Positions 4,319-58,671 of a stretch of 64,000 nt of DNA are shown here, piece by piece; positions within the stretch are counted from its first letter, which is position 1; each line of letters opens with the position of its first letter. The translations under genes were made by a program, and so were the position numbers. Source of the DNA: Allacma fusca (lineage: Eukaryota > Arthropoda > Collembola > Symphypleona > Sminthuridae); assembly GCA_947179485.1 (NCBI GenBank), contig OX359247.1, positions 56,207,131-56,271,130 on the forward strand, in the 5' to 3' direction. The notes beneath the pieces were generated by a model. That model did no database searches and was not told the origin of the DNA. It was given only the letters and a program-made list of their open reading frames with translations.

Positions 4319-4320
4319 AA

Positions 4321-16332: not shown

Positions 16333-16681
16333 TGTGACATACCTATTTGGGGGAATTAGTGTATGTACACATATGAGCCTGTGTGCCTATAATTATACAT
16401 GAACGTAGATTCAGCGAGCTACGAGAGGGGAATCTGTAATAAATGATATGGTTAAGCAGGGCAGTTTATAATGTAGGTATTTATTATGTAACACTTGAGA
16501 GATGATGTTTACACTAGGGCGAGGACACACAGACTGAGGATTCAGCTGTGAGCTGGGCTTATATACCCAGCATGTTACCTACGAGGAGCGGGTAGCGAGG
16601 GAGTAAGATTATTAGGTGGCGAGTAACAATAAGCAGGTTATTATATACACTTATATAACTAAGGATTACATGTATGCCACA
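16333..16681 (-). repeat. 3' LTR of the Ty3/gypsy element (349 bp)
   Basis: In plus-strand reading it starts TGTGACATAC and ends GTATGCCACA, which are imperfect inverted ends of the TG...CA type. It matches 28666-29014 at all but 4 positions. Because the element runs on the minus strand, this is the downstream LTR. It abuts the broken exon at 16332. Confidence 0.95.
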
Positions 16682-23890: not shown

Positions 23891-24044
23891 GTTTGCATCA
23901 ATACGATATAATAATCCATGTAGTAGGCAGTAATTCTTTCCAAAAATATGCGGGTGTTCTGACGTATCTCCGTTTTTGTGCAGGTCTTGAATGATTTTGA
24001 GTAGTTTCGGGTCTTGTTTCTGTTTATCAGCAAATAGCGAGATG

Positions 24045-25652
24045 TTACCACCAACTGTGTTGTATTAGTTGGTCCTCTTTCCCAATGTCTTCTGGAGAGG
24101 AGCGGGCTATTGCATACCTTAGTTGTCGTATAGGATAGCGTGAAAGGCAGTCGACATGAAGCATAGTGGCTCCTTTTTGGTATTTAATTACCATTTCTTG
24201 GTCGGCAAACTCCAATGCCCAACGAGCGAGTTGGCCATGGGGGTCCTTCAAAGAGTTGAGGTATTGAAGGGCTTGATGGTCGGTTTTTATGTGGATCCTT
24301 TTTCCAAATATGTAGGGTCTGAATTTCCTTATAGCAAAAATAATTGCGAGAAGTTCTCTTTTGTGAGTTGAATATTTTTGCTCTTCTGGTGTTAATGAGC
24401 GGGACGCATATTCAATCGGGTGTAAAGATTTTCCCTCATCGATTGATTGCATGCAGATGGCTCCTATGCCAATGCCGGAGGCATCTGTATGGATGTGGAT
24501 TTCAGCAGCAGGGTTGTAGATTTGTAACACTGGTGATTTAGTTAGCGCTGATTTCAGGTGATTAAAGGCGTTATCGCATGCGGGTGTCCATTCAAAAATG
24601 GCATCTTTCCGTCGTAAATCCGAAATTGGTTTGGCTATTTTTCCATAATCTTGGACAAATCTTCGGAATTGTTCGCATAGACCTAGGAAGCAGCGAACGG
24701 CTTTGATGTTTGTTGTGACGGGAAATTTTTGTACGGCGTCGATTTTATCTTCAGGTACGCTGATTCCATTCAGGTCTATTCTCCAACCTAAATATCGGAT
24801 GGAGTTATAGCCGAAAAAACATTTTGAGATTTTAAAACGAAGTCCATATTCTTGACATCTAAGCAGGGCTAGTTGTAAGCGGGTCAATAATTCTTCGAAA
24901 GTTGTAGCAAAGACTAGGACGTCATCTATATAAACTAGGACCAGGAAATATTTAAGGTTTCCTAGTATATCGTCCATCATGGACTGAAATTCAGCGGGTG
25001 CATTCATGTAGCCGAAGGGGAGTCTATTAAACTCGAACTTCCCTTCTGGTGTTGTGAAAGCAAATTTCTTTCGGTCGGCGGGATGTACTTCGCGTTGTAG
25101 AAAGCCTTGGAGTGCGTCCATAAGGATGAACCATCGGGCTCCGTGCAGGCGGTCCAGTTGCTGCGGGATGTTGGGCAGTGGCCAGGTATTTTGAGATGCC
25201 ACTGTCTTATTGACCCATCGGAGGTCAATGCAGAACCGATGTTCGCCATTAGGCTTTTTAATTAATAATATGGGCGAGTTCCACGGGGAAGTTGATGGGG
25301 AGATGATTCCTGCGTCTAACATTTGGTCGTTATGTTGTTTCATGACAGTTTGTTCGAAGTCAGAAACTCGGTACTGTGCCTTGTACACAGGCGGGGAATC
25401 TCCAGTGTCAACGGTGACGTATTTGTATTTTAATTTGCCGAGTTCTGTTTCATTCCGGGCGAACCATGTTCTGAAAGAATTAATTTTGTCGAGCATCAAA
25501 TTCATTTGTTGTGGTGTCATAGCGGGTCCCATATTTATCTCATCCATGGTAAAAGGTGTTAATGAAGGTGAGTAGGGTTTATTATTGATATGTCCAATTA
25601 TAGGTGGGTACGGTGAGTTATTATTGTTATTGGTAGGTTCAGGGATTTCCAC
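24045..25652 (-). CDS. Ty3/gypsy reverse transcriptase and RNase H
   Basis: Copies the element RNA into DNA. The RT core shows SPWNSPILLIKKPNG, FCIDLRWVNK, a first-Asp motif (FILMDALQGF) and the catalytic YIDD box. RNase H follows with HTDASGIGIGA, an LLAIIFAIRKF Glu and KTDHQALQYL. The frame remains open upstream of 25652 to overlap the end of the protease frame at 25757 in the -1 register. This suggests translation by frameshift rather than from its own start. Confidence 0.93.
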   Translation of the reverse strand: MEIPEPTNNNNNSPYPPIIGHINNKPYSPSLTPFTMDEINMGPAMTPQQMNLMLDKINSFRTWFARNETELGKLKYKYVTVDTGDSPPVYKAQYRVSDFEQTVMKQHNDQMLDAGIISPSTSPWNSPILLIKKPNGEHRFCIDLRWVNKTVASQNTWPLPNIPQQLDRLHGARWFILMDALQGFLQREVHPADRKKFAFTTPEGKFEFNRLPFGYMNAPAEFQSMMDDILGNLKYFLVLVYIDDVLVFATTFEELLTRLQLALLRCQEYGLRFKISKCFFGYNSIRYLGWRIDLNGISVPEDKIDAVQKFPVTTNIKAVRCFLGLCEQFRRFVQDYGKIAKPISDLRRKDAIFEWTPACDNAFNHLKSALTKSPVLQIYNPAAEIHIHTDASGIGIGAICMQSIDEGKSLHPIEYASRSLTPEEQKYSTHKRELLAIIFAIRKFRPYIFGKRIHIKTDHQALQYLNSLKDPHGQLARWALEFADQEMVIKYQKGATMLHVDCLSRYPIRQLRYAIARSSPEDIGKEDQLIQHSWW

Positions 25653-25756
25653 TTCTTCTCCGTCAAACGGGTCATATTTTGCTATATTGCGGATGCGGGG
25701 AAGGGTAACCTTTCGGTTATGCGGGTTAAAAACTAACAGGTAAGCGCATTTGTCTT

Positions 25757-26647
25757 TTACTGTGACTCAATAATGGGCTCAAAGGTTCTTGCAGGAATTT
25801 CATAAGGGCGGGATGTATAGCAGGTAAAACGTTTAACTGATTGTGATGAGCTGGATCGGGATTCAGTATTAGTATTAGTCGAGTAGTCATTATCGGGTAT
25901 GTCAGTATCGGGTGGTTCAGTGTGAATTACTGAACGTGAGTCTGAAGCAGGATTTAATTCATATTTTCGGTGACCAAAATCCAGGTAGGATTTATGGTAT
26001 TCGAGAAAGTCTAATCCAATGATGAGTAAAGTTGAGGATTTTGGGACTATAGCGAAGTCAAACGAATGAAACTTGTTTTTAACTTCATAAAATAGCGAGG
26101 CGGTTTTATTATAGTAAACCACCGAGTTTTGTACGAATTGTCCTAATGCACGTCGTGCCCGGGTCTTGACATGTATAGCCTGGGGTGCTATACGTTCGAG
26201 TTCTTGAACCAAAGCTGGTGATATTGTTGAGATGGTAACCCCACTATCAAAAGATCCTTTGACATGGCAGCTGGAGTTAATTAATTTAATTGGACAGAAA
26301 AAATCTGCAGATTTCTGTTGGCAAGCTTCAAGCATTTTAAATTCTTTTGCTAATTCTAGCGGGGATTGGTACGTATGTACAGATCGGGAATCTGCACTCT
26401 GATTCCGAATTAGGTTTAGTCGAGTATTAATTTTAGGTTGAATAGGAATATGCGGGATTGAATCTTCGACTGATTGTGAGTACAATTTTTGATTCTGAAA
26501 TTCCAAATTAGGTTCTTGGTAATCATGAAAATGTTGAAAAAGAGAAAATGGATGCGAGGAGTTGTAAATTCCAGGATCCGGCAGAAGGTTTGGTGTGGTG
26601 TGTTGATCCCGAGTCAACTCACCTATGCGTTTTCCGAAGGAAACCAT
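25757..26647 (-). CDS. Ty3/gypsy aspartic protease region
   Basis: A 296-codon frame overlapping the end of gag by 25 bases in the -1 register. It has a retropepsin signature, FDSGVTIS, and a later IIGLDFL motif that matches the second conserved block of retropepsins. The active-site triplet is D-S-G. The segment before it is a Gln/His-rich linker. It matures the Gag and Pol polyproteins. Confidence 0.8.
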   Translation of the reverse strand: MVSFGKRIGELTRDQHTTPNLLPDPGIYNSSHPFSLFQHFHDYQEPNLEFQNQKLYSQSVEDSIPHIPIQPKINTRLNLIRNQSADSRSVHTYQSPLELAKEFKMLEACQQKSADFFCPIKLINSSCHVKGSFDSGVTISTISPALVQELERIAPQAIHVKTRARRALGQFVQNSVVYYNKTASLFYEVKNKFHSFDFAIVPKSSTLLIIGLDFLEYHKSYLDFGHRKYELNPASDSRSVIHTEPPDTDIPDNDYSTNTNTESRSSSSQSVKRFTCYTSRPYEIPARTFEPIIESQ

Positions 26648-27948
26648 GTAAGTTGAGGTTGTCTGGCAGGAGCTGGTTGTGATGTGGTTGTCGGTGGTGC
26701 TAATCGGGCACTCAAGTTGAGAACCGCTGCCTCCAGGGCTCGAATATTAGGTTGATTATTACGATTGGGGTTTCCTCGGGGAGCATTGTTGTTGTTATGT
26801 TGTAAGCAAGGATTCTGCTGATTAGGATTTTGATTTTGATTTCCTTGTGGGCAATTCTGATTAGGAAAGCGAGGGTTGTTATTGTGTGGTCTGTCATTTT
26901 GTTGTTGGTTTCGAGGGTTCTGATTATTGAACTGCCGTGGTTGGTGAAAGTTTTGATTCCCGTTGCGGTCATTTCCTCGAGGATGTAGATTTTGATTTCG
27001 CCTCTCACCATTTCTAGGTTGAATGGGAGGTAGTCCATCTCGGAGTCGGTAACAGACCCCGGCGTGATGGCCTTTCTTCTGACAATATTGACAGGTCATT
27101 GGCGAGTTCATTCTTACAGCTGCGGATGCTTCCGACTTATTACTGGCAGGTTTAGTTGTTGAGGAGTCTTTAGGTGGTCTTTTTGAGACGGTACAACCGG
27201 GTTCGGCGTACTTACCATCAGGAAAATCGATTGTAAGGCGTTCCTTCAGGCGGGTTTCAAATTCTGGTAGTGAGCGATTTTGTTCATTTGCAAAATGCTT
27301 GCGGAGATTTCCGGGAAGTTTTCTTCGGAGATTTTCTACGACTTCGGTGGACGACCAGGTCGGATCAATGCGGTAACATATCTTGACGAGTTTGGTGACA
27401 AACTCATGAGCGTCCATCCCGGTCTTTAAGGTAAAAAGGTCATAGTCGTCTTTGGCGTCGCGGCGCTGGACGACATCGTCAAATTGTTTTAAAAATGAAT
27501 CCTTAAAGTAGGTCCATATATTTTCGGGAGTTTCTTTAGCATCCAATCTGCGGCGGACTTTGGGTTGGATTGTTGAAAACCAGTCCTTAACGTCTTGATT
27601 GGAGCGGGCATCGAAAACGTAATGAAAAACTTGCAGGAAATAATCCAGTGGAAGATTCAGATTTTCACGTTGCGAGTAAAAGGTTGTAATATAATCGCGA
27701 GCATTTTCAACTCCATTATAAGGGGAGATGCGGGTTTTCAGTTTCTTAAAATTGTCGTCGTTTCGGTCTTGAACTGAGCGTCCGAATAATTTTAATCCGG
27801 GTAGCATCTTTTCGAATGAGTCAATTTGTTTTTGCAGGTCGTTGACCTGAGACTTCTGTAAGTCTTGTTCATCTTGATGAGTTTTGCGGGCGTTGACTAA
27901 TTCTTGTTTTAGTGCAGCGATTTCGGCTTGTAAATTGTCGTGCGACAT
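26623..27948 (-). CDS. Ty3/gypsy Gag (441 aa)
   Basis: Structural protein of the virus-like particle. It has an N-terminal coiled coil (Leu/Gln/Lys-rich, residues 5-50) and a capsid-like helical region (YFKDSFLKQFDDVVQRRDAK...HEFVTKLVKICY). A CCHC zinc knuckle, C-Q-Y-C-x4-H-x4-C, lies near residue 285, followed by an Asn/Gln/Pro-rich low-complexity tail. It begins at ATG 27948 and the protease frame overlaps its end. Confidence 0.9.
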   Translation of the reverse strand: MSHDNLQAEIAALKQELVNARKTHQDEQDLQKSQVNDLQKQIDSFEKMLPGLKLFGRSVQDRNDDNFKKLKTRISPYNGVENARDYITTFYSQRENLNLPLDYFLQVFHYVFDARSNQDVKDWFSTIQPKVRRRLDAKETPENIWTYFKDSFLKQFDDVVQRRDAKDDYDLFTLKTGMDAHEFVTKLVKICYRIDPTWSSTEVVENLRRKLPGNLRKHFANEQNRSLPEFETRLKERLTIDFPDGKYAEPGCTVSKRPPKDSSTTKPASNKSEASAAVRMNSPMTCQYCQKKGHHAGVCYRLRDGLPPIQPRNGERRNQNLHPRGNDRNGNQNFHQPRQFNNQNPRNQQQNDRPHNNNPRFPNQNCPQGNQNQNPNQQNPCLQHNNNNAPRGNPNRNNQPNIRALEAAVLNLSARLAPPTTTSQPAPARQPQLTWFPSENA

Positions 27949-28665
27949 TTTGATGAAATTTGGAGGGATGACGGGTAATGGAAATGGAATGCGGGAGAAT
28001 AATCCAATGCAGGAATAATGAATAGATAATTTAGATTACCGGATTGGAAGGTAGGACTACGTGAAAATCCGGGACTGGTATACCAACATCATCCTTGGGT
28101 AAAAACGTCTAATTTTGTTGAAAATCGAAATGCGAGTTTCCAGAATCGGGTGAAAATGTATTTGTGGGATGAATTATCATCAGTTTAGGGTTGTCCAATG
28201 TTTGAAAGCGGGATTAAAATGGATGAAAATTGACATCAGAGCGAAAAAATCATCAGCCGTCGTCCTAGGGTTATAGTATGGGAACCTGGGCCTTGGCTGA
28301 AGTCCGTCCTATCCAGTATGGGTTGAGCCGAAAAAAACGGTCAATTTTGTTGAAAATGGTTGAAAAAGTTCGAGAATTTCACTTAGTCTCGGTAGAATAA
28401 GTAGTTTAGGTTGTAGGAAAATTGTTAATTAGTAGTAAAGTCACTAGGTTTAAATGTAGGAAAGTGAAAATCACTTGAGTTCACACAAAGGAAGTACTTA
28501 TGTGTGTTGGTGTTGTGTTCAGTTTTCAACCGTCACTTTTTCAAGTCTTATATATTTAAAGTTATTTTACGCGGTTTTCACGTGAAAATTAAAATAGTTT
28601 TTGCACTTTGAGTGTATTTATTCACTTATTTCACAGACTTCGGGTATTTTTAGGGCCTCCACCAA
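27949..28665 (-). other. 5' leader of the Ty3/gypsy element
   Basis: About 700 bases without open frames between the 5' LTR and the gag start. The first bases after the LTR (TTGGTGGAGGCCC on the minus strand) fit a tRNA primer-binding site beginning TGG. The matching tRNA was not identified. Confidence 0.6.
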
Positions 28666-33520: not shown

Positions 33521-35232
33521 ATGGATACAACTTCTGATCACCCCAATGACCTCTTTACGATCCCAATGACTAATGGTGAACCCAGACGAAGTCAAATAGT
33601 GAATAAAGGCTGCCTCCTCCTCACTACGGAGACTCAGTTAGTGTGCTGCGACAGAGCAAGACAGGGATTCATACTGGTGGAGAGGGAGAGAAGCTACTCA
33701 TGGACTTTAACTTTGTACCACCATTGAAACTCCCAGAGGAGATGGCTTCATCAATTAAAAGCGGTTCATCTGTCAGGTCGTATGCAAGCGTACGCAAGTT
33801 AAGACTCGAAGCGGAGTTGAAAGCTGCTGAAGAGATAGCTGCACTGAAAGAAAGCGTCATAGAGAAGAGGCTACAACTAGAGAAAGCAGCAATTGATGAG
33901 CAATTTGAAACTGGTAACCACAACAGTATTGTTTCTGTTGTCAACGATCAAAAGGTATCAATTTATGAAACAGATTATGAGGATAAGAAAGAAGATGTAA
34001 ATGAATGGGTTGAGTCTACTATACAAGTGCCACCAGTTAATCATTTGGCCGAGTCCTTCGCTAGAGCTTTGCAAGCAGGCGTTGCTATGGCAACCAACAA
34101 TCCCAACTTCCAGCCATCAACAACTGAGAGCAAGATTGAGAAATTTTTGGCCCGTCAGACCAACGCTCGCGATCTGCCTTCTTTCTCGGGAAAACCAGAT
34201 CAGTGGCCTAACTTCATAAGCGCATATAGACGTTCAACAGATGTGTGTGGATTTACCAAGGATGAAAATATGGCACGATTGCAGAAAAGCTTGAGCGGAC
34301 CGGCTCTTCACGCGGTGCAAGGTATGCTTATTTCACCTGAAAATCTAATGCTTGTCTTGAAGACTTTAGAGATGAGATTTGGCCGACCCGACATAGTCAT
34401 CAAAACTCTCATTGAAAAGGCTAGAAAGACTCCGGGACCCAGAGATGATAAATTAGAGATGCTGATTGAATTCTCTAATGTGGTTCAAAATCTGGTGGCA
34501 ACGATGCGAATTCTGAAAGGCACATCATACATGTTACATCCAGAATTGACTGAGGAGTTGGCATCAAAGATGCCCAGCCACTTGAAGCTAAAATGGGGAA
34601 AGTTTGTCCTAAAGCAACCCAGCCCGATCACTTTAGAACATTTTGCCAGTTGGCTCGACTTAATAGCAAATGCAGCCAGTATCACCAGCACTTTCACAGC
34701 AGAACCTGAAAACAAGAAATTTCAGAGAAATGATGTGAAAGGGAAAAAGCCAGACACTGTACTAATTGTTACTGGTGAAAGTAACAAGAATGAATCTTCA
34801 AGCAACAAGAAATGCAGCTATTGTGAGAAGTCCAATCATAATCTTGACAAATGCAATGACTGGATTAAGCTCACCGTCGACGAGAGATGGAAAGTTGTCA
34901 CTAACAAGCGACTGTGCTTTCACTGTCTACAACAATGGTGTCAACTGACGAAGCATAAAAATAAGCAAGAATGTGGAATTGATGACTGTAAGAAATTTCA
35001 TCATAAACTGTTGCATAACACTCAGCCATCAAAACCCGAATTATGTGCTCACACGAGTACTCGAAAACTGGAGATACTTCTTCGAATTCTTCCTGTTACA
35101 CTGAGTGGTCCAATAAGTAAGGTGGAAACTTACGCTCTCTTTGATGAAGCTTCAACCGTTACACTGATTGACTTAGCATTGATTCAGCAATTGGGACTGG
35201 AAGGAGAGCGTAACCCATTAAGCATCCAATAG
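33521..35232 (+). CDS. BEL/Pao gag and protease region (frame-broken)
   Basis: The frame from about 33643 to the TAG at 35230-35232 encodes a charged helical N-terminus (ELKAAEEIAALKES). A DUF1759-type capsid region follows (LPSFSGKPDQWPNFISAYRR, then LMLVLKTLEMRFGRP). Then come Cys/His zinc-knuckle-like motifs (CSYCEKSNHNLDKC, LCFHCLQQWC) and the start of a retropepsin-like domain (YALFDEASTVTLID, where the usual active-site Asp is present but the following residues are Glu-Ala). A first ATG at 33521 opens a frame offset by one base, so the N-terminus may also be broken. The TAG is in frame with the RT block downstream. Confidence 0.85.
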
Positions 35233-36714
35233 ACGAATTCCCAGACGAACCGAGACGACGATTCTCTGAATGTTTCACTGGAAATTTCTGGGACTGGTCA
35301 CAATGAGACATATAATTTAACAAATGTTCATTCTATGTCTAATTTCAATTTACCAGTTCAGTCAGTGAATTTTCCTCAACTTCGGAAGACTTGGAAGTAC
35401 CTGTCAAAGGTAAAGTTTCAGTCGCTGGTGGGAGCTAAACCGCGAATACTGATTGGCCAGGATAACTACCACCTTATAGCACCTCGAGAAATTATAGAGG
35501 GACCTCCAAATGCTCCAGTCGCTACGAAAACCAAATTAGGTTGGGTCATTCATGGGGTCAACTATCGCCGACATCAATTGGATTACACATGCGCCGTGTT
35601 CAACGCAAATGAAGATGGCGACAATTCGCTCCATAACTTGGTTAAAGACCACTTCAAGATAGAATCGTTAGGAATTTCTGCTAATGCTAAATCTATTCGT
35701 TCCAAGGAGGAGCAACGAGCCGAGATGATACTTGAATCTACAACCAAGAGAGTTGATGGACGGTGGGAGACTGGTTTGCTCTGGAAACATGACCACGTGC
35801 AGCTTCCTGAGAGTACGCAACAGGCGTTTCGCAGATTGAAATCCATAGAAAAGAAAATGGATCAGAATCCAGTTTTTGCTACTAAATACTGCGCCAAGAT
35901 GCAAGACTTTCTGGACAAAGGGTTTGCTCGTAAACTTCGTCCCGACGAACTTGCCATTAAAAGTTCAAAAATATGGTACCTTCCACATTTCGCTCATTTT
36001 AATCCAAATAAACCCGATAAACTTCGACTGATTCTAGACGCTGCATCTAAGAGCAACGGAACTTCACTAAATGAAAATCTTCTTACTGGCCCGGACTTTT
36101 ATGTACCTTTGACGTCCGTACTGTTCCATTTTCGACAGCGTAAGTTTGGATTTGGTGGCGACATTCAAGAAATGTTCCCCCAAACAAGAATTATTGAGAG
36201 CGATCTTCCAGCACAGAGGTTCCTATGGAGAGCAATGGATCGAGACAGACCACCGGACGAGATGGTTATGACCCGCATGATTTTTGGTTCAGTTTCGTCT
36301 CCATGCTCAGCTCAATTTGTCAAGAACCGTAACGCTCAGGATTTTAAGGACGACTTCCCTGAAGCGGTAGCCGCCGTTGTCTATCAACACTACATGGACG
36401 ACTATTTTGATAGTACGGATAGTATTGACGAAGCTGTAACTAAGATCAAATCGGTGATCAAAATCCATCAGAAGGGAGTATACAAAATTTGCAACTGGAC
36501 AAGCTGCTCTCCAGATGTTCTCAAAGAAATTCCCTCGGAACTTAGAGGCATTGATGACAAGGATCTAAATGGTAGTAAAAACCTTCCGACTGAAAGAGTA
36601 TTGGGTATGAGCTGGAATCCAACGGAAGATACTTTCTTTTTTGGTACAAAATTCCACAAGGTAGACAAAAGTTTACTGGATGGTACGGCAACCCGACCAA
36701 GAGGGGCATTTTGA
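35233..36714 (+). pseudogene. BEL/Pao reverse transcriptase (pol, frame-broken)
   Basis: Continues in the gag frame after the TAG. It shows the BEL-type RT: KTKLGWVIHG, LRLILDAASKSNG, the first catalytic Asp in FGGDIQEMF, and the YMDD box in QHYMDDYFDS. The frame ends at 36714 where the conserved sequence moves to a register one base back. The change falls in or next to a G or T run, so a single missing base would account for it. Confidence 0.88.
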
Positions 36715-37229
36715 CAGTGGTAATGTCAATTTATGACCCAATCGGTTTCCTTCACCCCTTGACTATTAAAGGAAAAATCCTACTTCAGGATAATTGGCGG
36801 GAGGGTATAGCCTTTGACGTTCCTTTGAGTAGTACATACACCAGTAAATGGCGCCTTTGGTTAAAAGAAGTCGAGTTAACTCTAATTGCCTTCCAGGTAC
36901 CCAGATGCTATTTTCCATTTCCAGCAGAGAATGTTAGGAAATGCTTACATGTTTTTTGTGACGCAAGTGAGAAAGCCATGGCTACCGTTGCATACATTAC
37001 TTTTGAGCAAAGCAAATCTATTTGTACCGCATTTGTTATGGCCAAATCCAGAGTTGCGCCACTGGCAGCGAAATCTATACCTAGATTGGAATTAGAGGCA
37101 GCAGTTATGGCATCAAGAATGGCTTTAACTGTACGTCAGCAGCACGACTTCCAGTTCGCCGAAACGCATTTCTGGAGTGATTCGAAGATCTGCATCTCTC
37201 TGACTCCAAGAAGTGCAAAACTTTTGTAG
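36700..37229 (+). pseudogene. BEL/Pao RNase H region (pol, frame-broken)
   Basis: Starts with the conserved SIYDPIGFLHP and PLTIKGKILLQ block that follows RT in Pao-type pol, then RNase H. The RNase H Asp is in HVFCDASEKA, the Glu in RLELEAAV and a further Asp in FWSDSKICI. The frame is lost at 37229 beside a run of T, again a one-base step back, with RNase H ending in the next register. Confidence 0.85.
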
Positions 37230-38986
37230 CGCACAGAGTTGGGGAGATTCAGGAGGCTTCGGACGCTAGTCAATGGCATTGGATACCAACCCATGAAAAC
37301 GTAGCAGATGAAGCTACTCGAGATGTCAAAGCAGTTGATGTGTGTCAAAGTAGTCGCTGGTTGAATGGGCCCCCTTTCCTGAAATTAACTTCCGACCAAT
37401 GGCCGCAAGAGAAAGGTATCCTACGAATTGAGGACTTTGATCCCGAAATTTTGGAGGTAAAGAAGGAGTTTGTCGCTGTGACGACGTTACAGCCAGAATG
37501 TGACTTTCTCAATGCTGACAATTTTTCATCCTGGAAGATATTTATACGAAAGACAGCATGGGTACTCAGATTTATTGGTAGATGTCGCAAGTTGATTTCC
37601 AGAAATACAACCCTTACAGCCATGGATATATTTTCCGCTGAGCTATTTTGGTGGAAACGATCCCAGAAAGATAGCTTTCCCGAAGAGGTAATAATGCTGA
37701 GCCAGGGAAAGCCGCTACCACAGAGCAGTCGACTTCGTTTTCTCTCTCCTTATTTGGATACATTTGGAGTGATGAGAGTGAAAGGCCGCATTGGAGAGGC
37801 AATCGAAATTACCCACTGGACTCAAAATCCTGTTATACTGGATCCAAAGCATCCATATACAACTTTGGTTGGTCAATGGTTTCATGAGGACGCAAAACAT
37901 TACGGAATGGAAGCTGTGGCCAACGAAATCAGGCAAAGATTCTGGGTACTTAATTTACGAAGTTTTATTAAGTCCATTTGGTCTAGATGTCAGGTCTGCA
38001 AAAATGCAAAAGCACAACCGCATGTCCCCGAGATGGCCCCACTTCCTGATTTCCGGGTAACAAGATATCCCCGAGCTTTTACTATAACCGGCCTCGATTA
38101 CTTTGGCCCAATGACTGTTACTGTGGGGAGGCAGAGACAATTCAGATATGGGTGTCTTTTCACATGTCTCACAACTCGAGCAGTTCACATTGAGATAGCC
38201 GAGTCCCTCACAACTGAATCTGCAATATTGGCGTTAAGGAGGTTCTGTAGCAGACGAGGAAATCCTAAAGAGATTTACTCGGATAATGGCACGAATTTTC
38301 ATGGAGCCAACAATGAGCTTCGCAAAGCCTTTCTTACTTTAGACAAGACCACAATTGAAGCAAAAATGGCTGAAAAGGGAATTCAGTGGAATTTCATACC
38401 TCCTGGAGCTCCTCATATGGGTGGTTTCTGGGAGCGTTTGGTACGAAGCGTGAAAACTGCATTGAGAGAGACATTAAAGACTCCACAAAAATCTGAAGTA
38501 TTGATGACTCTAATGGCTGAGGCAGAATTGATCATTAGTAGCAGACCACTTACGCACGTATCAATAGACCACAACGACGATGAAGCGCTTACTCCTAATC
38601 ATTTTCTCATAGGTACATCTGGGGGCTACCAACCAATGGGAAACTTCGAATACTCAAATCTAGATCTGAAAAACAGGTGGAGAATGGCTCAACATCTGGC
38701 TGATCTGTTCTGGAAAAGATGGATCAAGGAATATTTACCTTGCCTTACCAGAAGGACAAAGTGGCTCGATCCTGCAAGACCAATTCGAGTAGGCGGCATA
38801 GTCATAATTGCAGATGAACGATTGCCAAGAAATTGCTGGCCCAAGGGCATAGTGACCAGAACCATACTCGGAAAGGATGAAAAATGTAGAGTAGCCGACG
38901 TCCGCACAAAACTTGGTACCTTCCGAAGACCCGTTTCCAGGCTTTGTGTACTTGATGTACAACCCTTTGTGAGTGATGTAGCCTAG
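37230..38986 (+). pseudogene. BEL/Pao integrase and C-terminal domain (pol)
   Basis: A long open frame. The zinc-binding part has the pairs H-E-D-A-K-H and C-Q-V-C. The catalytic core has Asp in GLDYFGP, Asp in YSDNGTNFHG and Glu in GGFWERLVRSVK. A C-terminal DUF5641-like region follows (RWRMAQHLADLFWKRW, then PRNCWPKGIV and VADVRTKLGTFRRPVSRL). It stops at 38986, 21 bases before the 3' LTR. It is intact from about 37340 onward, but without the upstream frames it would not be made as a normal polyprotein. Confidence 0.9.
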
Positions 38987-42082: not shown

Positions 42083-42826
42083 CATATGACTCAGAATTAG
42101 TGTTGTCCAGTCTTGAGTGAGAGTTTGAGACTGAGTGGCAAAACGAAAAGACTGACTCTTAAAAGACTGAGACTGACTTTAAAAAGAAGGCGTTTATGAG
42201 AATGAGACTAAGTGAAACTGTTACATCCTCTCTTCTAAGTTGAAAGAGTGGATAGTCTCCGTCAGTGCTGCCCGTTCACTTTCTAGTCTAGTCAATTCTA
42301 GTCCACTACTTACTCAAGCTGTAATATTCTATTCCTATTCTATTCATATCTTCTTGTGACTTGGCTATTCTAGTCTATTCCAATTCCATCTAAGTCAACA
42401 AAATTCTAGTCTATTCCAAGTCTATTCACCTATTCACAATTCACCACAAACAAAAACAGCTTCAAGGAATGTGACGTTGCTGAGAAAGGAAAACTGCGTT
42501 TCTATGATCTTCCTGGTAAAAATAGAAAGGAAAATACATCACGCAGTTATTAGGTATATTCTTGAAGCATTATGTTTACTCAGGTAACTGAATTCAAACC
42601 AGCCATAAGCTGCTTGTACTGAATCGGAATTCTGGATTTTTAAGGTAGCAGACGTGCAATATTTGAGGGGAGGTTTTTACTTATTTTGTGATCGAACTAA
42701 GGTAAAAATCATTTTTAAATCGTTTTATACACTTTGTGAAGTCGGTTTATTATAATCCATTCCAAAGCTCTAGTGCTTTGGCAAATCATTATGCATGCCT
42801 TAAATATTTTTTATTCAATTTTGAAG

Positions 42827-44317
42827 ATGGCAGCTTTGACATATTGGCAGAGAAAGGAAAAGGCAATGAAGTTTGGTAAGGCAGATCATCGTCCTCAGGA
42901 TAAAGATGGAATGCGGTTTTTCCTATTGCATCGCAGAAGGAAGAGCTTTCATATTCAACCTCAAATAAACCCAAATCTTCATCGAATTCAGGCATGGATG
43001 CCACGACCACACTCAGTTCCAGACGGATTCCATAAGCAGATAGACATTTCCAGTGAACAGAAATTCAGACTTGTGGACTGTCCTGAATCATTTGACGTGA
43101 TGCTCGATCATTTATACGAAGTGGAAGTCTTTGCATTGGATCTGGAGTTTCATGACGATCATTCATATTTAGGTATGAAAATTATTTTTATAATTCGCAA
43201 AGAATCGTGAGAATGTACTACAAAACATGTATTTAACTAATACAATCAAACATTTTGAAATTTTAAATGCACATTATTCCAGGAATGACAAGTCTGATCC
43301 AGATAAGCACTTACTACTTCGATTTTGTTTTGGATCCGTTTGTACTGATCCAAGAGATTGAAACCCAACTAAAGGTTATATTCGAGAGTGAATATTGGAT
43401 CAAGATTATGCATGGATGCCCCAACGATGTCCGAAACCTTCAACGAGATTTCGGAATTTTCATCATTGGTGTGATTGATACACAATTAATGTTCCAGAAG
43501 TACAAATCACTCAACGCTGGAAACATGGTAAAATTCGATACTATGGCCAAGGAGTTCTACTCTAGGAATGAACTCAGTTATTTAAGTGATAACGAAAAAT
43601 CATTACTGACTTTGGCCGATTATTGTCAGCGTCCGATTCCTAATAAATTGAAGATCTATGCGCGTGCGGATGTCCACGTTCTAATTCGGGTATATTTTCA
43701 AATGAAGATTCATGTAAGTAATTATGCCATTAGAGATTTTAAGTCAAAGCAATACATACACACGTTTACAACACTAACCTTCAAATTTACAGATGACAGC
43801 GGCTGAATTTAACTCAGTAGTAGTAAGCACAAATACATTACTCTGTAAACATGGACTAACTTACGAGCCGCCAGTCACTGTCAATTTTGCTTCAAATCCT
43901 TTGGTGCACAGGGATATGAATTTCAAATCGCTATGCACCGAACAGAAAAGGATCTTGGAAGCTATTTACAATTGGCGGGAAGATTTGGCTAAGAGATTTG
44001 ATGAGAAACCGGAATACATTATTAAAACTCCGGACAAAATTGCTATCATAGCACGCCCATTAATTTCAGCGGAAGATATTCAGTTGGCTGTTCAACGTTA
44101 TTCTGAATCGTTTACCCGATGGTGGGAAGCGTTTCTTAAACTGAAAGTAAATGGGCAAATTTATTACGCCGATTTGCTAGCTACATCATGTCACAACTGC
44201 ACTATTGCTGGACATTGTGCGTGGGGATACCTAGAAGACTATTCAAAAGAACATCAGCAAAGGTATTATGCAAACCACCGTGCCTCTAAGACAATTGTAA
44301 ATAGACATCGACGATAA
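42827..44317 (+). CDS. EXOSC10/Rrp6-like 3'-5' exoribonuclease, 3 exons, 433 aa, inside a hAT element
   Basis: Exons 42827-43172, 43283-43713 and 43793-44317, with introns GTATGA...CCAG (110 bp, phase 1) and GTAAGT...TACAG (79 bp, phase 0). The joined frame is open throughout. Known family role: nuclear exosome-associated RNA trimming. Visible parts: a DEDDy exonuclease domain (about residues 95-260) with D-x-E in FALDLEFH, Asp in MHGCPNDVRNLQRDFGI, and Y-x3-D in YARAD. An HRDC domain follows (about 300-345, EQKRILEAIYNWREDLAKRF). It is much shorter than usual EXOSC10 because the N-terminal PMC2NT domain and the long tail are missing. The tail has C-H-N-C and Arg-rich runs. The start is chosen at ATG 42827 (AAGATGG); the frame is open further up. 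It lies within the TIRs of a hAT element and so is a captured, DNA-level copy. Its expression is unknown. Confidence 0.75.
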
Positions 44318-45589
44318 CATCGGGATGCCAACAGAAGGGCAAGAGAACAGCAACAACTTCAGCAATAATTTTAATATTCTCCTAGTGAGAACAAGGTCTT
44401 AAAGCTACAATACTCTTGTGTATTGTAGTTTAAGGGTTTTCACGATAACAGTAGCTAAGGTTCGGTACACGGCGTATTAGCTATAATTTAAGTAATAAAT
44501 ACGGCAAAATTATAAGCCTACATGTGTGTAATTTTACTAGATAGTTTTCAGTAGATAGTCTCATTTAATTATTACGGGATAGAAGTATGCGATTGCATTA
44601 GTAAGGTCTATACTACAATTGTCCTGGTTATAATAACTACAAAGCACTGGAGCTACTAATAAACGTCCCAGGTAATCATTTCTAATAAATTATAGATTGT
44701 AGTTACAAATAAATGTGTATGAATTATATAGTGGTAAAATGACTATGTAACCTTTACTATGTGTAAGTATATTTTGCATATCAGCGTTAGTCTTGCGGAA
44801 TTTCAAAGCTCTAGTGCTTTGTAGTTTTAAGAGTGCATTAAAATGCAATGTAAAGCTGATTGCTGTGTTATGACTAATTTCCCGAAACAATCAGTACTTT
44901 TTAAGCTCTAAAATGTTCAATTTCGGAATCTGATAATATGTGGGACAATAAATGAAATATGCACACAAACGAAACTTGTATTTTTAGCACCGTGAAACTG
45001 TTAGAGCTAATATTATGTATACATTTTATTTTAACAATTTAACTTCTACTCATATGCACTAGATATTAAAGTTACAGTAGTTTCAGTTAAAACAAAAACA
45101 CATCAAATGTACGTCTGCAATACAAAAATAGTAGAAATACTATTGAAACCATTTAAAGTTATACATGTCCTTAAAGACGCAAATATTCCTTAAATTCTCC
45201 CCGTATCCAACATCTTACAAGAAACCACACGAAATCGTATGAAAATATTAAAACTCTTGTATTTTAATTGTAGGATACGGTAAAATTCTTATATTTAAAA
45301 TAACTGATTACGTAAATACATGTACCCATCTGCTCCAAGTAGTAGTTACAAGAAAATTAAATCCAACTCTATAACTAGTTATGTAGTGAAATTAAACCGA
45401 CAACAGTTTACCCACTAGAATAATTGGGATATTTAATAGTACATGTTTGGTGAGCCAATTGTAGCAACTTGTCTATTGCATGGTAAACGTTTTCCTATAA
45501 ATGCAAAAAACACATACGGTATGAGGCATATTTATAAAACTAGTGTTTTGTAAGCAATAAGGAGTTGTAGCTATCGCAACCTGATCAGA
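44318..45589. other. hAT interior without recognised genes
   Basis: AT-rich sequence between the exonuclease gene and the truncated end of the transposase. Immediately after the exonuclease stop the same frame continues as a short Arg/Gln-rich tail (44318-44368). The word AAAGCTCTAGTGCTTTG occurs at about 42763 and again at 44805, flanking the gene. Confidence 0.5.
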
Positions 45590-47405
45590 TTGAAATTAGC
45601 CTGTTCACCTCTGCAAGCCGATAAATCGCATCAACCCAATAATTCCATCTTATTATAGCACGCATTAGAAGCCCCTTGCCGGCCAATTTGCCTAATTTGG
45701 CTAAGTACACTGTATTATTGAAAAACAATTGATGATTTTGTTCATATAATTCAAGAAGGACAAAGCCTCAGCTGTCTCTAAAGCTTTATTGATTCCAAGC
45801 TGAAGTTGATGAGACGAACATCGAAGATGCTGCATTTCCTTGTTAAAACGAGGTTCCATTGCAGCAAAAGTATCAATCGATTACTCAATTTCACCTTCCA
45901 CGTCGTTGTATTCATCATCACTATCGCTATCACAGTAAAGCGTGATCTCATCTGACAACATTTCTGCATCTTCAATTACGACATCTTCGTCCGAGTCTGT
46001 TTCATCATCTGCATCATCGACTTGATTATTCCTAGTTGGAGCCTTGAATGCTTTAATCATATTAGATCCTGAGTCTGTCATTACAAGGGCAACCTGCGAA
46101 ACGAAATTGGAGATTAATAAAACTAGTGTTTGATTAATTAAACAAGACAATTTATTGCAAAAAACCTTTTCCCCTAAGTTAAGCTCGGTCATAAGAGCAT
46201 CAAAGTATTTCCGAATTGCTTCACCAGTCTGGCTTACGTTTATTTCACGAATACCGATTGTTAAGCATCGAAGATTCCAGCATTCATCGATGAAATGAAA
46301 CTTAAATGCAAGAATGCCGTCTTTCCTTCTGCTTTTCCACCCATCCAAGTATACAATTCCCTTATCTACCGATTTCAGTATCCTCTTCAGATTTGGAACC
46401 ACCTGAATGAGGTATTAAAATAGAGACTAAAGATACATTACATTGAATTACTTTGTACAAATAATTACTGGAATGTAGGTTCCGAATATTTATCTTACGC
46501 TATTTTCATGTTCCTTTTTGAATCTTCGTTGGATAGTTGACCGACTTGGGATAACAATTTTCGGGTCAAGGGTCGTTCTTACATTTTGAAATCCCTTACT
46601 ATTTCCAAGGCTCATTGGTAGCTTGTCTTTCGCAATACAGTACATTAGCGATTTGTTGAACCTACTCTGCTGTACATCGGTTGGTTGGTATTTCACTTCT
46701 TTTGAGTTCACCCATGATTGTAAGAGCGCCTTTGACTTTTCTTTGCTCGCCGCTTGTTTGATCTGCAGCTCTTCGCTCTTCCCGGGATGATATTTCTATA
46801 AAAAAAACCAAATGAGGTGTCTCAGCTATCACTTGTTTCAAAATACTAGAATTTTGATAATGAATTCGGCATAAAAATAAAACCGTTTGACTCACTTTAA
46901 GATGTCTCATAAGGTTTGAAACTCCTCCACAGGAAGGGGACTGATATGGATAGATTTTATCACAGATGAGACATTTTGCTTGAATTGATGTTGGTTCATT
47001 CATCTTTGGTATCCCCGTAATTGTATCATATTTGTGACCAATGTACTGAAATGCCTCGCGTATTGCTTTTACTGGTATTTGGTAGTCTTCGGCCCGAATT
47101 AATACTTGATCCGCCATTCCAACTTCAGGTAGCTCGTCTTGTACGTTTTGACTAGGGGAATCCTTGTGAAGTTTCGCAGGACGGACGCTTGCATTCGATT
47201 TTCCGAAATCATTGGAAAGTTTCCTTTTGTGAGTCAATTCATTTAGCCAGTTGGGTTTCAATTTAGTCTTCTCAGTAGTTGTTTCAATGCAGCATGAGAT
47301 CGTTGAAGTACTGGGAAGGGCATCTTGTTCCGTGACAAGGGTTAGTTCCTGCGGCTGTGGTTTTGGATCTGACTTACTAATTTTTTTTGTTTTTGGTTTT
47401 GACAA
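45590..47405 (-). pseudogene. hAT transposase, C-terminally truncated, with introns and one in-frame stop
   Basis: Minus-strand remains of a BED-finger hAT transposase. Exon 1 (47405 to about 46895) has a basic N-terminus and a BED finger (CLICDKIYPYQSPSCGG...MRHLK), ending at a GTGAGT donor. Exon 2 (about 46796-46497) carries KDKLPMSLGNSKGFQNVRTTLDP and IPSRSTIQRRF, ending at GTAAGA. Exon 3 (from 46402) has YLDGWKSRRKDGILAF. After a further intron VALVMTDSGSNMIKAF follows. An acidic stretch then ends at TAA near 45882, but the same frame goes on with HLRCSSHQLQLGINKAL. The WN-type motif (IIRWNYWVDAIYRL) appears near 45600 in another register. Nothing matching the C-terminal dimerisation region follows. 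Confidence 0.8.
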
Positions 47406-48135
47406 ATTCGACGGAGGATTGTTAAGTTCAGATCTGTTCTTGAAAATTACTGCTGGAGTGCTAGGAGCTGATTTGTTTTTATGGATCCTGTGTGGGAGGT
47501 TTTTCTATCGTTTCCTCCCATTTTTGGGGAAAATTAATAACAAAAATCTTGTTTTTTGCTACTACCACACATTAAACAGTTTGGAAAACTTTCCATAGTC
47601 GAAATCTTGAAACTCTTCTTGTGTATCAAAAATCTTGTTTTTTGTTATAGTTCTGGTTAAATCAAATGAATAAGGGAATACTGATGAAACTTAAAAGGTA
47701 ATTATGTTACAAGTGCCTTAATATACAACGTATTTAGTGAAAGGGCAAGTTTGGGAAGAATTTTCAAGTAAAAAGAAAAGGCATGGCAATATGACTCGGA
47801 CATGCATCGCATAAGTCATAAGAACTCAGAACTGACAAAATGGGAAACGGTTTCCAACTTGAAAAACGCACATTTTAGTCGTATGTTTGCTTGTGCCCAC
47901 AGTGCAGTTGAAAGGCTCACCATCAGCCTTAGACGAGGGAATAGTGCTATCTTCCTAGTCAATTCTAGTCTATTCCCTCTGCGTTAACATTCTGTGTATT
48001 CTAGTCTATTCTATTCTTTTTTACTTTGCATCAAGGCTATTCAAGTCTAGTCTATTCAATTTGTTCCCACATCCGGGCTATTCTAGTCAATTCCCTAGTT
48101 TCCTAGTCTAGTCGGACTAGACTAGGGCAGCACTG
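47406..48135. other. 5' flank of the transposase and right subterminal repeats of the hAT element
   Basis: Upstream region of the minus-strand transposase. From 47950 it holds CTATTC/CTAGTC repeats up to the TIR. No other gene is seen. Confidence 0.6.
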
Positions 48136-48561
48136 GTCTCCGTCTCCGTGATGGTAAGATTCAAATTTTCGCGCGCTCTAGCTGTAGCGTCTACCATAGC
48201 TATATGCAGCTAGCTATTGCATACAACTATTTACTGCCTTCCTTATTTACATTTGCCGTTCTGAGCTAGGAAATGCTGGCTGTGCAGTGCTCGTTTTGTT
48301 AAAAGACTGACTGAGACTGATTAAAAGACGCATGTATACGCGCGTATACAATATTAAGCAATTTTAAATTTTCGCGCCATTATTAAAGCCCAAGGATGGA
48401 AATTGGCGCCATTTTGTATCCTTGGGGACTGAGTGGGAGTTTGACCCAAGACTTTCCTTGGGACTGAGACTGAGTTGGACTGATATGCGTAGCATAAAGA
48501 CTGACTGTAAATAAAAGACTGAGACTGATAAACTTCAAGACTGGACAGCACTACTCAGAAT

Positions 48562-53857: not shown

Positions 53858-56800
53858 TTAGAAAAATTTTCTCTTCAACCAGCCAGTTACTGAGGAGTCT
53901 TCAGAACTTTCGCTCTTTTTCTTATTCTTCTTCTTATCGTTCTTCGAATGACTATTAGAATAACGTTGTGGAACTAAGGGTGCTTCGTGATATTGGGCAG
54001 CTTTTCTATTGGAGGATGTGACAACGTCAATCGTCTGTTTCAACTGAGCTCCTGTTTCCTTAAGCTCGCACAGTTTGTCAACCAATTCTGTCACTCTTTG
54101 AGGAGTGATCTCCTCTTGGCTAGAGCTGCTGGAACTGATAGATTCTTTCAGAATGTTCACTTCGTGGGTGTAATTGCTCTTCATATCATTCAAGCTATCC
54201 AGAACTTTTCGGTTATTCCCTAGTGTGACTTTATCCTGTTCTACCCGAATCAGATGATCCAAATAATCCGACATTACGTCATTATAAGGAGTAATAGCGT
54301 TTCTTTGAAGGAACGTGGCAAATTCTGCGCTCACTTGGGTAATAATTGCTTGCTCGCTTTCCAAAACCTTAACTTTGGTCTGTAAGGTGTCAATAAAGGT
54401 TGCAATGGTTGCCTTGTTGCCCTTACGATTGTTCAGCATTTCCTTTACACCCGCATCTTCAACTAATTTCTGTACTTTAGTAGTTTTATATGTCTGATGC
54501 ATATGCTCGAACCAAGGGCATCCGCAATAGTTGCAGTAGCGTTGATTTGGTGGACCAGTCATGGCAGCGCAGTAGTTTAGTTCCGTCTGATGCTTGGTTC
54601 CAGTCGAAACTCCACTGATTCCACAATGCTCGTGGCAAATTTGCTTATAGTTCTCAACGCCAACGCCATTATTCCCTTTGATGATTTCGATACATTTAGA
54701 AGCCCCACACACAGTTCTTGGATAGCCCAGAGGTTCTGCTACCAGGTCAACAGCTGGGATCTGTAGACGCGTTGCCAAGTCTGCACAATGTTCATCAATT
54801 TTAGTGATCTCGTCTTCCTTATCCTTTGCGAGAGAAATGTTATCCTGGATGTTCTTGCTCACATCCGCCAATGGTTTTGTTAATTCCGTTATAAGTTTTC
54901 TCGCATCGTTCAATGAAAGGGTATCTTTCGTCGTGTGAGGTTTCAATGATTGAATATGACCGAGAAGTCGATCCGTTTCTTCAACGGATTTATCCCAGCT
55001 TGCGGAAAAGTTGATTCTGTCATTATCTGAAAATTCGATTCCATTCTTTACTGCAGCCAGGAATCGAAATGCTTCGTTGTCCATGCAGTACATCGTGTGT
55101 TTCGAGATTGGGATTTCAACGTCTTTGTTTTCACTGAGTAGACGTTTGAGGGCAGAAAGCGTATCCCCTGGTTTGTAGAAGGTGCTCCGGGCGTTAGTAA
55201 AGCAAAATACAATATTTTTGCTAGCATCTCGATGCAAATGAGTGAGAAGCTCTTTAATGCAAAATTGGAAGACAATTGTGAGTCTTGCGTTGTTCGGTTT
55301 CAACAAAATGCAGATGCCATGAATTTCCGGCACGTACGATAAATGGTCCAGGATCCTCTTGAAATTTTCTTTATCCTGGGTGATACCTCGGACGTCCCCA
55401 ATCCCTGGAGTATCAATCAACCTCACCAGGGTGTCACCTCGTGAGAACGTGTATGATTTTGGGTACTGGGTGGCGGAGTTCCCTGCTTGAGCGTCTTCGT
55501 TGGTGTCGTTCCCTGTGCGAATGATAACCTCCTCGTAATCATCGTTAGTTACAGAGAATGAGGTTGGGATGACGGACAAAAGTTTCCCGTTTTCAGCCTC
55601 TAATAAACTTGAGTAGGAGAGGTAGTTGACGATGCCATTTATCCAAGTTGATTTTCCCACTCCAGTCTCACCCAGAATTAGAATGTTCAATTCCTTCAAT
55701 GGCTTCAACAAACCTTTAATTTAAAGAAAATAATTTAGTTTTTGATGTATGAAAAGTATTTGTTAATTTACTTTCGTAATTCGCTTTAACTAAGAAAGAA
55801 GTACACAAATACTCTGAAACCTATCTGGCAACTAAAAACATCATAGGATTTATGCAGGTCTAATATAAATAATTTGTGTATACTTATTACAAGCACACGT
55901 ACCAAGCAGTTGCTTCAGAGTTTCTTCATCGGATTTAAACTTCTGGAAAACGTTTCCGTGTAGGTCGGAGGAACATCTGTATGAATAGGTGTCTGCCTTT
56001 CCCTTCCCACAGTTGCAATAAAAGTAGTCATCAAACCCAAACTCCACATCAGTTTTGCATTTGAAGCACACCCATTTGCGCACATCGTTTTCGCACTCCC
56101 CGTGCAATGATGCTGGGCATCGTATCTCCAGTGTGGTCCGTTTGCTTGGTTTCCCGTCGCAGAACACAACAGAGCTTGATTTGACTAAGCACAAGCTTGC
56201 CACTTCAGAGTAGTCTTCAAGTAAGTCCCTTGAGATGCATTTCCCGTTTTTGAAATGTTGAACAACGATGGCTTGATCTCCAGGGGGTGAGAGCTGCGGA
56301 GCTACATCCAGATCTACGTAAAGAAATGCTGGCGGTTCCTGAGGAGTACTGTCGGAAGGCTGATCTTTTTGCTTATTTTCTTCAATAAGGCTCAAAAATA
56401 AATGCAATTGCTTGGACCATAGCTCTTTATCAGCGGTTTTGGCTTCGGTCTGGGAAAACAGGATGTATATATCCTTTCCGTAGAACTGAAGCAGGGCTGT
56501 ATCCAGACTAGATTCCATTTTCGAAACATAAGTAACTCCATGTTTGGTTGTCAGAAGCTTGTAAAGGTTAATTTTGTCAGAAGCGTCCTTAAATTGAACA
56601 TGAATTACTTTCAGGATATTAGGAGCAGAATTGGGATCTTCCTCATATTTCTGTCGAAGATCTTCCAGCTCCATTGGGGCTGCCCGACCCGATCTGATTT
56701 CCACTAATAGATGTGAGAGCTGAGACCGAATGTTGGCTTCTGAAATGTCTGCCTTTGACTTTAAATCTTCCACGCTCTTCCTGGTACTATCAAGTACGCA

Positions 56801-57715
56801 AAAATCATGCTTTGTCACATCCGTGTACAGATCGTTGAGTTGTTGCTTGGCCTCGTTGATGTCGTCAAACAAATGCACGACCCGAAGGATGGCATCTTCA
56901 TTTAGTCTCTTGACGATTGTGTCAGCTTCCCTGTGGATCTTGAAATGTGACTTGAGCACATCTACTGGTAGCAAAACATAATGCAATGGTTTCCCTTTTC
57001 CATCGTTTGACTTTTGCACAAGAACTGGTAATTTCTTCATAAGTTCTACAGCCCCCTCGATTGTTTGAGGTAAGTCGCCTTCCGGAAGTACGTCCCCATA
57101 GATATTAAGAGAAAATTCCTTTACTTTTGAAGAACCCCCTTTGCCGTAGTCAACGTCGCCTTTCCCAGATATCTGAACAGCAATCACGTTCAATTTCGCT
57201 TGAAGTGCACCGGATATCTCCTTAGTATCTTCATTCTCCTCGTTGGAGTACTCCGCGGTTACCATCAAGTTGGCTCCCCAGCTGATACCAACGACCACAT
57301 GAGTAGCCTCTTGTTGAAGCGCATCCAATTCAATGCATTCTTTGAGGGCGTCATTAAATATGCTAAGTTCCTCAATTTTGGTGCAAATATTGTACATGAG
57401 GGTACAACGAACGGCTCTCTTGCTGGATTTCTCGTCCCGAAAGTAGCGTCCGGAACCTTTCAGTGAAAACAGTCCGCAAAGGACGCTTAACTTTAGCTCC
57501 GCCTTCACATCCAATTTATCAAATTTATCGCTGTACTTGTCCGAGTGGAAGTATTTGGTGTCGGAGAAAGGGTTGTCCCTTGTCTGGATGGCTGAGTCTG
57601 GGGCGCTGTCCTTGAGGATGGAGATTCCACAGAACTTGTCACGTCGGGCGTCGTACAGGTCACCGAGTTTCGCAACGCTCCCCAAAGCTGCTCTTGAAAT
57701 GGATCCCGTTTCCAT
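53858..57715 (-). CDS. Intact SNTX-like MACPF/thioredoxin plus P-loop GTPase protein, 2 exons, about 1222 aa
   Basis: Exon 1 is 57715-55903 and exon 2 is 55713-53858, joined over a 189-bp GTACGT...AAAG intron in phase 1. The same junction is seen in paralogue 1. N-terminal half: SNTX-family (stonustoxin-like) MACPF-type region, about residues 5-265 (AALGSVAKLGDLYDARRDK, KSSKRAVRCTL, ATHVVVGISWGA). Helical FAT-like and thioredoxin-like regions run to about 490, then a Cys-rich segment, about 515-590 (WVCFKCK, CNCGKGK). C-terminal half: P-loop GETGVGKS near 618-625, switch motif DTPGIGD near 705, FTNAR in place of the usual G4 motif, a Cys/His cluster ending C-x2-C-G-C-PWFEHMH near 1010, coiled-coil helices and a Lys-rich tail. 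There is no signal peptide, so it is probably cytosolic. A membrane- or pathogen-response GTPase is an inference. Family membership alone does not make it a venom toxin. Confidence 0.85.
55714..55902 (-). other. Phase-1 intron of the intact SNTX-like/GTPase gene (189 bp)
   Basis: The donor GGTACGT is at 55902 and the acceptor AAATTAAAG ends at 55714. The polypyrimidine tract is weak. The site agrees with the better-defined intron of paralogue 1 (GTAAGT...TTTTCAG), which sits between the same two codons. Confidence 0.75.
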
Positions 57716-58671
57716 GTCGTTGATATTTTTAGATTAAAATCTAAATAAATAATTAAACAAAGCGCTTTGATTATCCTAGTGAAGCTCACAATCAGAGACA
57801 TTTAAAATTGGGAAGATTAACTTACACTTAATTATTAATATTGCACTGATCTCTACGCCAATTTACCCAGTGGGTTTGTGGTTGTCTGTAGAATAGCAAT
57901 GTGTGTTTCTTTACCCATTTGTATGAAAATGCAATAAATATTTTATTTGCGCCATTGCTGTATAACGAAATGGTAACCTGGTAAAGGCACAAATGTAGAA
58001 TAACCGGATGAAGTAAAACATTTTTTTAGATTGTTCATAGTCTTGCTATAACGGATGACTATATAACAGATATTATACAAGCAACATATAAATTTGGCCA
58101 TCCCAAGCCCCGTATACGTAATGCTTAAGAAGTATGTATAATTATATAAAGTAATAATCAGATCGTAATAGCGCATAAAAAACCGTCCCCTGGGAACATG
58201 TTATATCGAGGTTTGGTAGCATGTTCCCGTAAGGTAGTATTTTCTTTACATGGGTAAAAATATTTAGGAGGAAACGTTTCTCATGTTACCCTCAGTGCTA
58301 ATTTTTCACCCAACAAGCATAGATATAAATGCTTCATGAGAGTCAAATTTTATTTTTTAAGGGGATTTTAGCTATATTAATTTTAGATCCTATATTCCTT
58401 AAAATATTTGTATTCTCCTGCATAATTATTGAAGGTTAAAAATAATTAAGCTATCCACAGGAAACCTTCCATGATACTTGTGCACGTTATGCTCCTATAT
58501 GAGTGCCCTTGAACTCAAAAATGTTAACACATTGGGAACAAGGACAATGGGGTGATAATTCTATGAGGACAGTTTCCAATTAGATCTGACGTTCTTTGGC
58601 TATTCCCAATTCTGAACTGTCATACACTATATATGTATCATTTATTTGCACTGAACCTACACAGTACATAT
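57716..58671. other. Upstream flank of the intact SNTX-like/GTPase gene, no gene seen
   Basis: The first 25 bases upstream of the start (GATTTTAATCTAAAAATATC on the minus strand) resemble the flank of paralogue 1. The rest is AT-rich without recognised features. Confidence 0.5.

Follow-up and report, generated by a model that had tools for sequence, protein, structure and literature searches.

Exonucleases of DNA transposons are known from other systems. Dada transposons of Laccaria and Ectocarpus have a DEDDy 3'-5' exonuclease as a domain inside the transposase (PMC3706591), and KolobokD and other Kolobok lineages of animals carry an accessory nuclease of the DEDDh, TREX/ERI1-like type together with a Kolobok transposase (PMC9587614). 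A protein gene of cellular origin is also found in fungal hAT elements that captured histone H3, the copies being inactivated by repeat-induced point mutation as far as described there (PMC6710886). No accessory exonuclease was reported for hAT or CACTA elements in the open-access papers searched (Repbase lay outside this search). The subject here is a stretch of 64,000 nucleotides at 56207131-56271130 of contig OX359247.1 of the collembolan Allacma fusca (referred to as the window), which contains a hAT element at positions 42263-48135 with a three-exon gene for a DEDDy exonuclease and a broken transposase gene. The exonuclease is of the same DEDDy type as that of Dada, but it is encoded by a separate intron-bearing gene, in hAT and CACTA-like elements. 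In contrast to the fungal histone H3 copies, it is conserved across element families.

The exonuclease is best read as a recurrent accessory gene of transposons in this genome, a second gene standing beside that of the transposase. We assign a probability of about 0.8 to this reading, a figure that does not extend to the RNA role. The prevailing picture of a transposon is a transposase plus ends. The occurrence of an RNA exonuclease-type enzyme that is under selection in hAT elements, and is also present in a CACTA-like family, suggests that conserved effector genes, possibly acting against small-RNA silencing, travel with the DNA transposons of animals, and the enzyme is directly testable.

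Elements that hold both genes and are bounded by terminal inverted repeats (TIRs) and target-site duplications (TSDs) occur in more than one family. L017, L018, L021 and L022, located on two chromosomes, are complete hAT elements of 6.7-7.1 kb, with the TIR CACTGCTGCCC (11/11 matches) and four different, perfect 8-bp TSDs. Their mutual identity is 96.7-99.6% in aligned blocks of at least 1.7 kb, and the homology ends at the TIRs or at most 9 bases away; the left 158 bp of L022 are doubled. Each contains the exonuclease and transposase pieces spanning residues 1-835 of the 848 in the related hAT transposase P0003, with the two genes tail-to-tail as in the window element. The exonuclease of these elements is 59% identical to that of the window where intact. 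A looser end search located the ends of L012, a 10.15-kb hAT element (TIR 10/11, TSD GGTGCAAT 8/8) with a distant version of the exonuclease. The layout of the window element is also seen in L033, in degraded form, and in L035 the N-terminus of a second related transposase, P0005, adjoins the exonuclease (91% identity). A capture peculiar to this one element, as the original prediction from the window alone may be read, is contradicted by the complete two-gene elements of other families.

A search of the genome with the PF01612 profile gave 57 exon-level matches, many of which start at the profile position where exon 2 of the window gene starts. For the first 20 loci (L009-L028), transposase sequence on the opposite strand is of the hAT type in nine and CACTA-like in four. 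Altogether 26 loci were examined (the window, L009-L028 and L033-L037). The exonuclease lies opposite hAT transposase sequence in 12 of these (the window, L010, L012, L016, L017, L018, L021, L022, L024, L025, L033 and L035), and 6 are CACTA-like (L013, L014, L015, L019, L020 and L036), with L013 being an internally deleted relative of L014 that lacks the CACTA-like transposase. No transposon partner was seen in the stretch read for L023, L026, L027, L028 and L037. Both ends and a TSD were observed for nine exonuclease-bearing elements, namely the hAT elements of the window, L012, L017, L018, L021 and L022, and L013, L014 and L015 with a 2-bp TSD; this count leaves out L010, L016, L019, L020, L024, L025, L033, L035, L036 and L037. 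L009 is atypical, with a single-exon PF01612 open reading frame (ORF) near a hAT transposase, both on the same strand (2824-3855, 7472-9534).

CACTA/EnSpm elements are recognized by TIRs starting with CACT and a TSD of 2-4 bp. The 12-bp TIRs of L013, L014 and L015 are CCCACACCATGG, not CACT, and the TSD is 2 bp in all three (CG, TA and TA, respectively). Transposase_21 (PF02992), which clusters with CACTA in one report (PMC3985635), has matches in L019 (E 0.006) and L020 (E 0.083), and DUF4218 in L014 (E 0.003) and L036 (E 0.14), all under the cut-off and the two domains never in one locus. Among the further loci, L034 (C8:20869600-20875599) has the pol of a long terminal repeat (LTR) retrotransposon, followed by an intronless 546-aa ORF (2720-4357, plus strand) with a CCHC knuckle. 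This ORF matches PF01612 without the DEDDy residues in the alignment, and four more PF01612 matches are near-equal to it in score.

The window element resembles animal hAT elements of the BED-finger type in its short TIRs, its 8-bp TSD and the BED finger of its transposase. It differs from them in its convergent exonuclease gene and in the missing C-terminus of the transposase. The features of the element are as follows.

42255-42262, no strand: left TSD GTCTCCGT
42263-42273, plus strand: left TIR CAGTGCTGCCC; the same TIR bounds a 1,754-bp derivative in L042
42281-42438, no strand: left subterminal repeats of the TCTAGTCTATTC type
42763-42780, no strand: 18-bp near-palindrome CAAAGCTCTAGTGCTTTG, 64 bp upstream of the exonuclease ATG
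42827-43172, plus strand: exonuclease exon 1, with the N-terminal FGKADHRPQ motif and Exo I DLE
43173-43282, plus strand: intron 1, phase 1, place and phase as in modelled relatives
43283-43713, plus strand: exonuclease exon 2, with Exo II HGCPND and Exo III YARAD
43714-43792, plus strand: intron 2, phase 0
43793-44317, plus strand: exonuclease exon 3, with the HRDC-like region and the CCHC knuckle (last Cys changed to Tyr); stop TAA at 44315-44317
44318-44368, plus strand: former C-terminal tail, resembling the end of the L018 protein, severed by the TAA
44804-44821, no strand: second copy of the 18-bp near-palindrome
45586-45719, minus strand: transposase remnant in a different frame; homology ends at 45609
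45722-46093, minus strand: transposase exon, with an in-frame TAA at 45881-45883
46166-46402, minus strand: transposase exon, with the LDGWKSR motif
46499-46795, minus strand: transposase exon
46896-47504, minus strand: transposase exon, with the BED zinc finger
47947-48113, no strand: right subterminal repeats
48125-48135, minus strand: right TIR
48136-48143, no strand: right TSD GTCTCCGT

The two TIRs match at 11/11 positions and have no third occurrence in the window, and the 8-bp TSD is exact. The joined flanks have at least 46 matches in the genome (40 of 1289 candidates scored). The two halves in the window itself account for two of these, and the remaining 44, at 38 places, cross the insertion junction; the element was therefore inserted into a copy of a repeat. 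Three of the junction-crossing copies, read base by base, are empty sites with a single unbroken GTCTCCGT each. Both ends thus come from one insertion, as originally predicted, and TIRs from two separate elements are ruled out. A pair of inverted ends TAGTGTTGTCCAGTCTTGA, with one mismatch, is found at 42098-42116 and 48535-48553, so that the hAT element sits within another repeat.

The left end of the element recurs at 39 or more other places, with 81-87% identity (40 of 108 candidates scored), and among the matches listed none extends beyond base 416. L042 is a complete derivative with the same TIRs and a TSD GAGGGACT; it has no exonuclease match. For L041, the other left-end copy fetched, a right end was searched for and not found. 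A scan for RNA families gave none at gathering scores.

The three exons encode 433 residues, with GT..AG introns where the original prediction had placed them, and the protein is identical to a deposited A. fusca protein. A Pfam scan recognizes PF01612 (E 8e-24), and the DEDDy set (D105, E107, D164, Y241 and D245) is invariant across five sequences, in agreement with the predicted Rrp6/EXOSC10-like exonuclease in a hAT element. The best PDB match is Rrp6 both by sequence (4nlc, 1.6e-23) and by fold (4nlb, 2.4e-16), and in the top 13 fold matches the predicted structure aligns with the catalytic core of Rrp6 along 318-413 columns. The mean predicted local distance difference test score (pLDDT) is 53.7 for the first model and 66.7 for the second, built from alignment A3; it is low outside the exonuclease domain and about 60 in the HRDC-like region. 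The HRDC match itself (E 0.007, 16.8 bits) is under the Pfam cut-off of 23.8 bits.

There are differences from Rrp6/EXOSC10, however. The window exonuclease is short, has a CCHC knuckle and its own introns, is borne by a transposon, and gave no match to the N-terminal PMC2NT domain (PF08066) in the Pfam scan. A genome search with the PF08066 profile was silent, and equally silent in its controls. A protein database search with the exonuclease found itself alone (candidates limited in length), a further search added four distant Rrp6/RNase D proteins to this self-match, and no viral relative was found in viral_contigs. The gene was originally described as intact. Compared to L018, its last zinc ligand is a Tyr and the TAA removes the last ~15 residues. 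Judged from its sequence, the window copy is decaying, with this ligand and the C-terminus of the exonuclease lost and the transposase dead, and the full working of the exonuclease has probably been lost.

The transposase is truncated and on the opposite strand, as had been predicted. In addition to the in-frame TAA, it has a frameshift near 45725, and the C-terminal 286-289 aa of its relatives are missing. P0002, the transposase protein deposited for the window copy, has a recognizable BED finger (zf-BED, E 5.7e-7), and the identity to P0003 is 54% over the aligned part. Dimer_Tnp_hAT is present in P0003 and P0005 and absent from the window transposase, and as a result the hAT assignment rests on the ends and on the homology of the truncated copy. 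The relatives of this transposase are hAT, and not Dada or Kolobok, transposases.

The window and L018 exonucleases were compared over 431 codons. The amino acid identity is 59.4%, and the three codon positions are 69/76/40% identical. The proportion of differences is 0.84 at synonymous sites (pS) and 0.27 at nonsynonymous sites (pN); no dN/dS ratio is given because the synonymous sites are saturated. The identity is 74% for intron 1 and 86% for intron 2, where shuffling gives means of 74% and 81%, such that intron 1 equals the shuffled mean and intron 2 is inside the shuffled range. Saturated synonymous sites together with a conserved protein indicate that, by this comparison, the exonuclease is under long purifying selection. 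Selection had been proposed originally, and it stands for the long run, but not by the argument that the gene stayed open while the transposase decayed, as the 3' end of the cargo is damaged too. The recent capture proposed at the same time is at odds with the related exonucleases in other elements. For L010 and L012, dN/dS is 0.35 on 24 differences, and L010 is broken.

In the transposase tree, the window groups with L018 and P0004 (support 99/97), followed by P0003 (83/82) and then by L033 with P0005. Transposase identity, at 51%, comes close to the value for the exonuclease, which is what shared descent would give. Since L033 and L035, a relative of P0005, also hold exonuclease sequence, the gene looks ancestral in this clade and lost in P0003.

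Several observations weigh against a recurrent accessory gene. The sister element L032, which has transposase P0003, is complete (TIR CACTGGTGCCC, TSD CGCACGGC) and has no exonuclease match, and no exonuclease is listed near the transposase loci C8:17809840, C8:17937995, C8:45894562, C1:44376279 and C1:79146918. The exonuclease is frameshifted in L021 and L022 and has a stop in L010, and the L017 transposase has a stop and a 189-bp deletion. The clade of transposon exonucleases has a support of only 83/84, and its distant members are no closer to the window enzyme than is the host EXOSC10 (30% identity).

The exonuclease would serve the transposon, and it would be helpful rather than essential, because related hAT elements lack it. 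We tentatively favor, at somewhat less than even odds, an RNA role for the benefit of the element over the processing of DNA ends, because the solved structures closest to the enzyme, in sequence and in fold alike, are those of Rrp6; the tree also places it by Rrp6. The enzyme may trim or degrade RNA, such as antisense or small-RNA precursors that derive from the element and feed into silencing. Going from the catalytic residues to a function is our inference. Alternatively, it may act on DNA, trimming 3' ends or hairpins at the donor site or at the element ends during transposition. WRN, a DNA exonuclease, is among the fold matches of the window enzyme. A DNA role is proposed for the DEDDy and DEDDh nucleases of Dada and KolobokD (PMC3706591, PMC9587614). 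On the other hand, the closest solved relatives are RNA exonucleases, and the related complete hAT element L032 has no exonuclease at all; a DNA role deserves consideration but appears the less probable. It is doubtful that the Rrp6-derived exonuclease is a mobile counter-silencing gene common to unrelated classes (hAT, CACTA-like and, without catalytic residues, the LTR retrotransposon L034), each countering RNA-based control.

The exonuclease genes share several marks. The best model has intron 1 in phase 1 in 13 of the 13 loci modelled (with low scores for L010, L012, L016 and L025). Intron 2 could be modelled in 10 loci and is in phase 0 in 8 of them, but not in L020 and L024; L016, L021 and L022 have no open model. 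The knuckle CX2CX4HX4C is present in 9 of these 10 loci, the exception being L020, where the third exon was not found, and also in L036 and L034. The five DEDDy residues are complete in the alignment for the window, L018, L012, L014, L019 and L024 (the models of L016, L020, L025 and L036 being incomplete). FGxAxxRPQ or a near-variant of this motif is found in the window, L018, L014, L019, L020 and L024, and only RPQ in L012.

The host has a separate, canonical EXOSC10 (L011; yeast Rrp6 E 1.6e-67), so that the transposon gene is not the only locus of this kind. The host exons run uninterrupted across both window intron positions, with introns elsewhere (the gene ends are outside the model). This overturns the earlier argument that the introns indicate a DNA-level capture from EXOSC10, and, together with the 30% identity, host EXOSC10 is rejected as the direct source.

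Independent captures, in which hAT and CACTA-like elements each acquired members of one host exonuclease family without a single transposon-borne lineage, are unlikely in our estimate. The families are indeed far apart, with 27-34% identity to the window for whole models (27-31% to L012, L014, L019, L024 and L025), and are no nearer to the window enzyme than is host EXOSC10. The exonuclease tree was built from 11 of the 26 loci and 4 database proteins, with L034 and L036 dropped beforehand. Its nine transposon rows form the 83/84 group, the three CACTA-like rows form a subgroup (93/91), and monophyly of the hAT exonucleases is not rejected (approximately unbiased test, p 0.24). This tree is compatible with one capture or several, which cannot be told apart by it. 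However, the knuckle, the phase of intron 1 and mostly also the N-terminal motif are in common; P0007 and P0008, both Rrp6 proteins, have no such knuckle, host EXOSC10 lacks both introns, and no free-standing gene bearing these marks was seen that could be the source (L009, L023, L026, L027 and L028 are left unassigned).

A functionless passenger, captured neutrally, is improbable. Damage is seen in the window copy and in several more, and elements without the exonuclease persist, but the amino acids have been kept over saturated synonymous sites, and the DEDDy residues are kept in distant families. A one-off recent capture of host EXOSC10 by the window element can practically be dismissed: the protein search gave no second closely similar annotated protein (candidates limited in length), but the exonuclease in L017, L018, L021 and L022 already refutes it, and host EXOSC10 is only 30% identical with introns at other positions.

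The 18-bp near-palindrome (CAAARCNCTAGNGYTTTG) is found in 3 of the 10 stretches scanned: the window, L018 (at 2451, 3469 and 6344) and L033 (at six places). None was found in L012, L014, L019, L020, L024, L025 and L032, the last being of the same clade. In L018 it has the form CAAAACTCTAGTGTTTTG and lies 65 bp upstream of the exonuclease ATG. Its position 64-65 bp before the ATG in the two elements is possibly that of a regulatory site.

Elsewhere in the window, two loci on the minus strand (12671-16342 and 53858-57733) that contain large ORFs and resemble each other represent a duplicated gene; one contains a GETGVGKST stretch, which we take to be GTPase-like. The ORFs at 22237-28035 and 33607-38986 presumably belong, by their motifs, to Gypsy-type and BEL/Pao-type retrotransposons.

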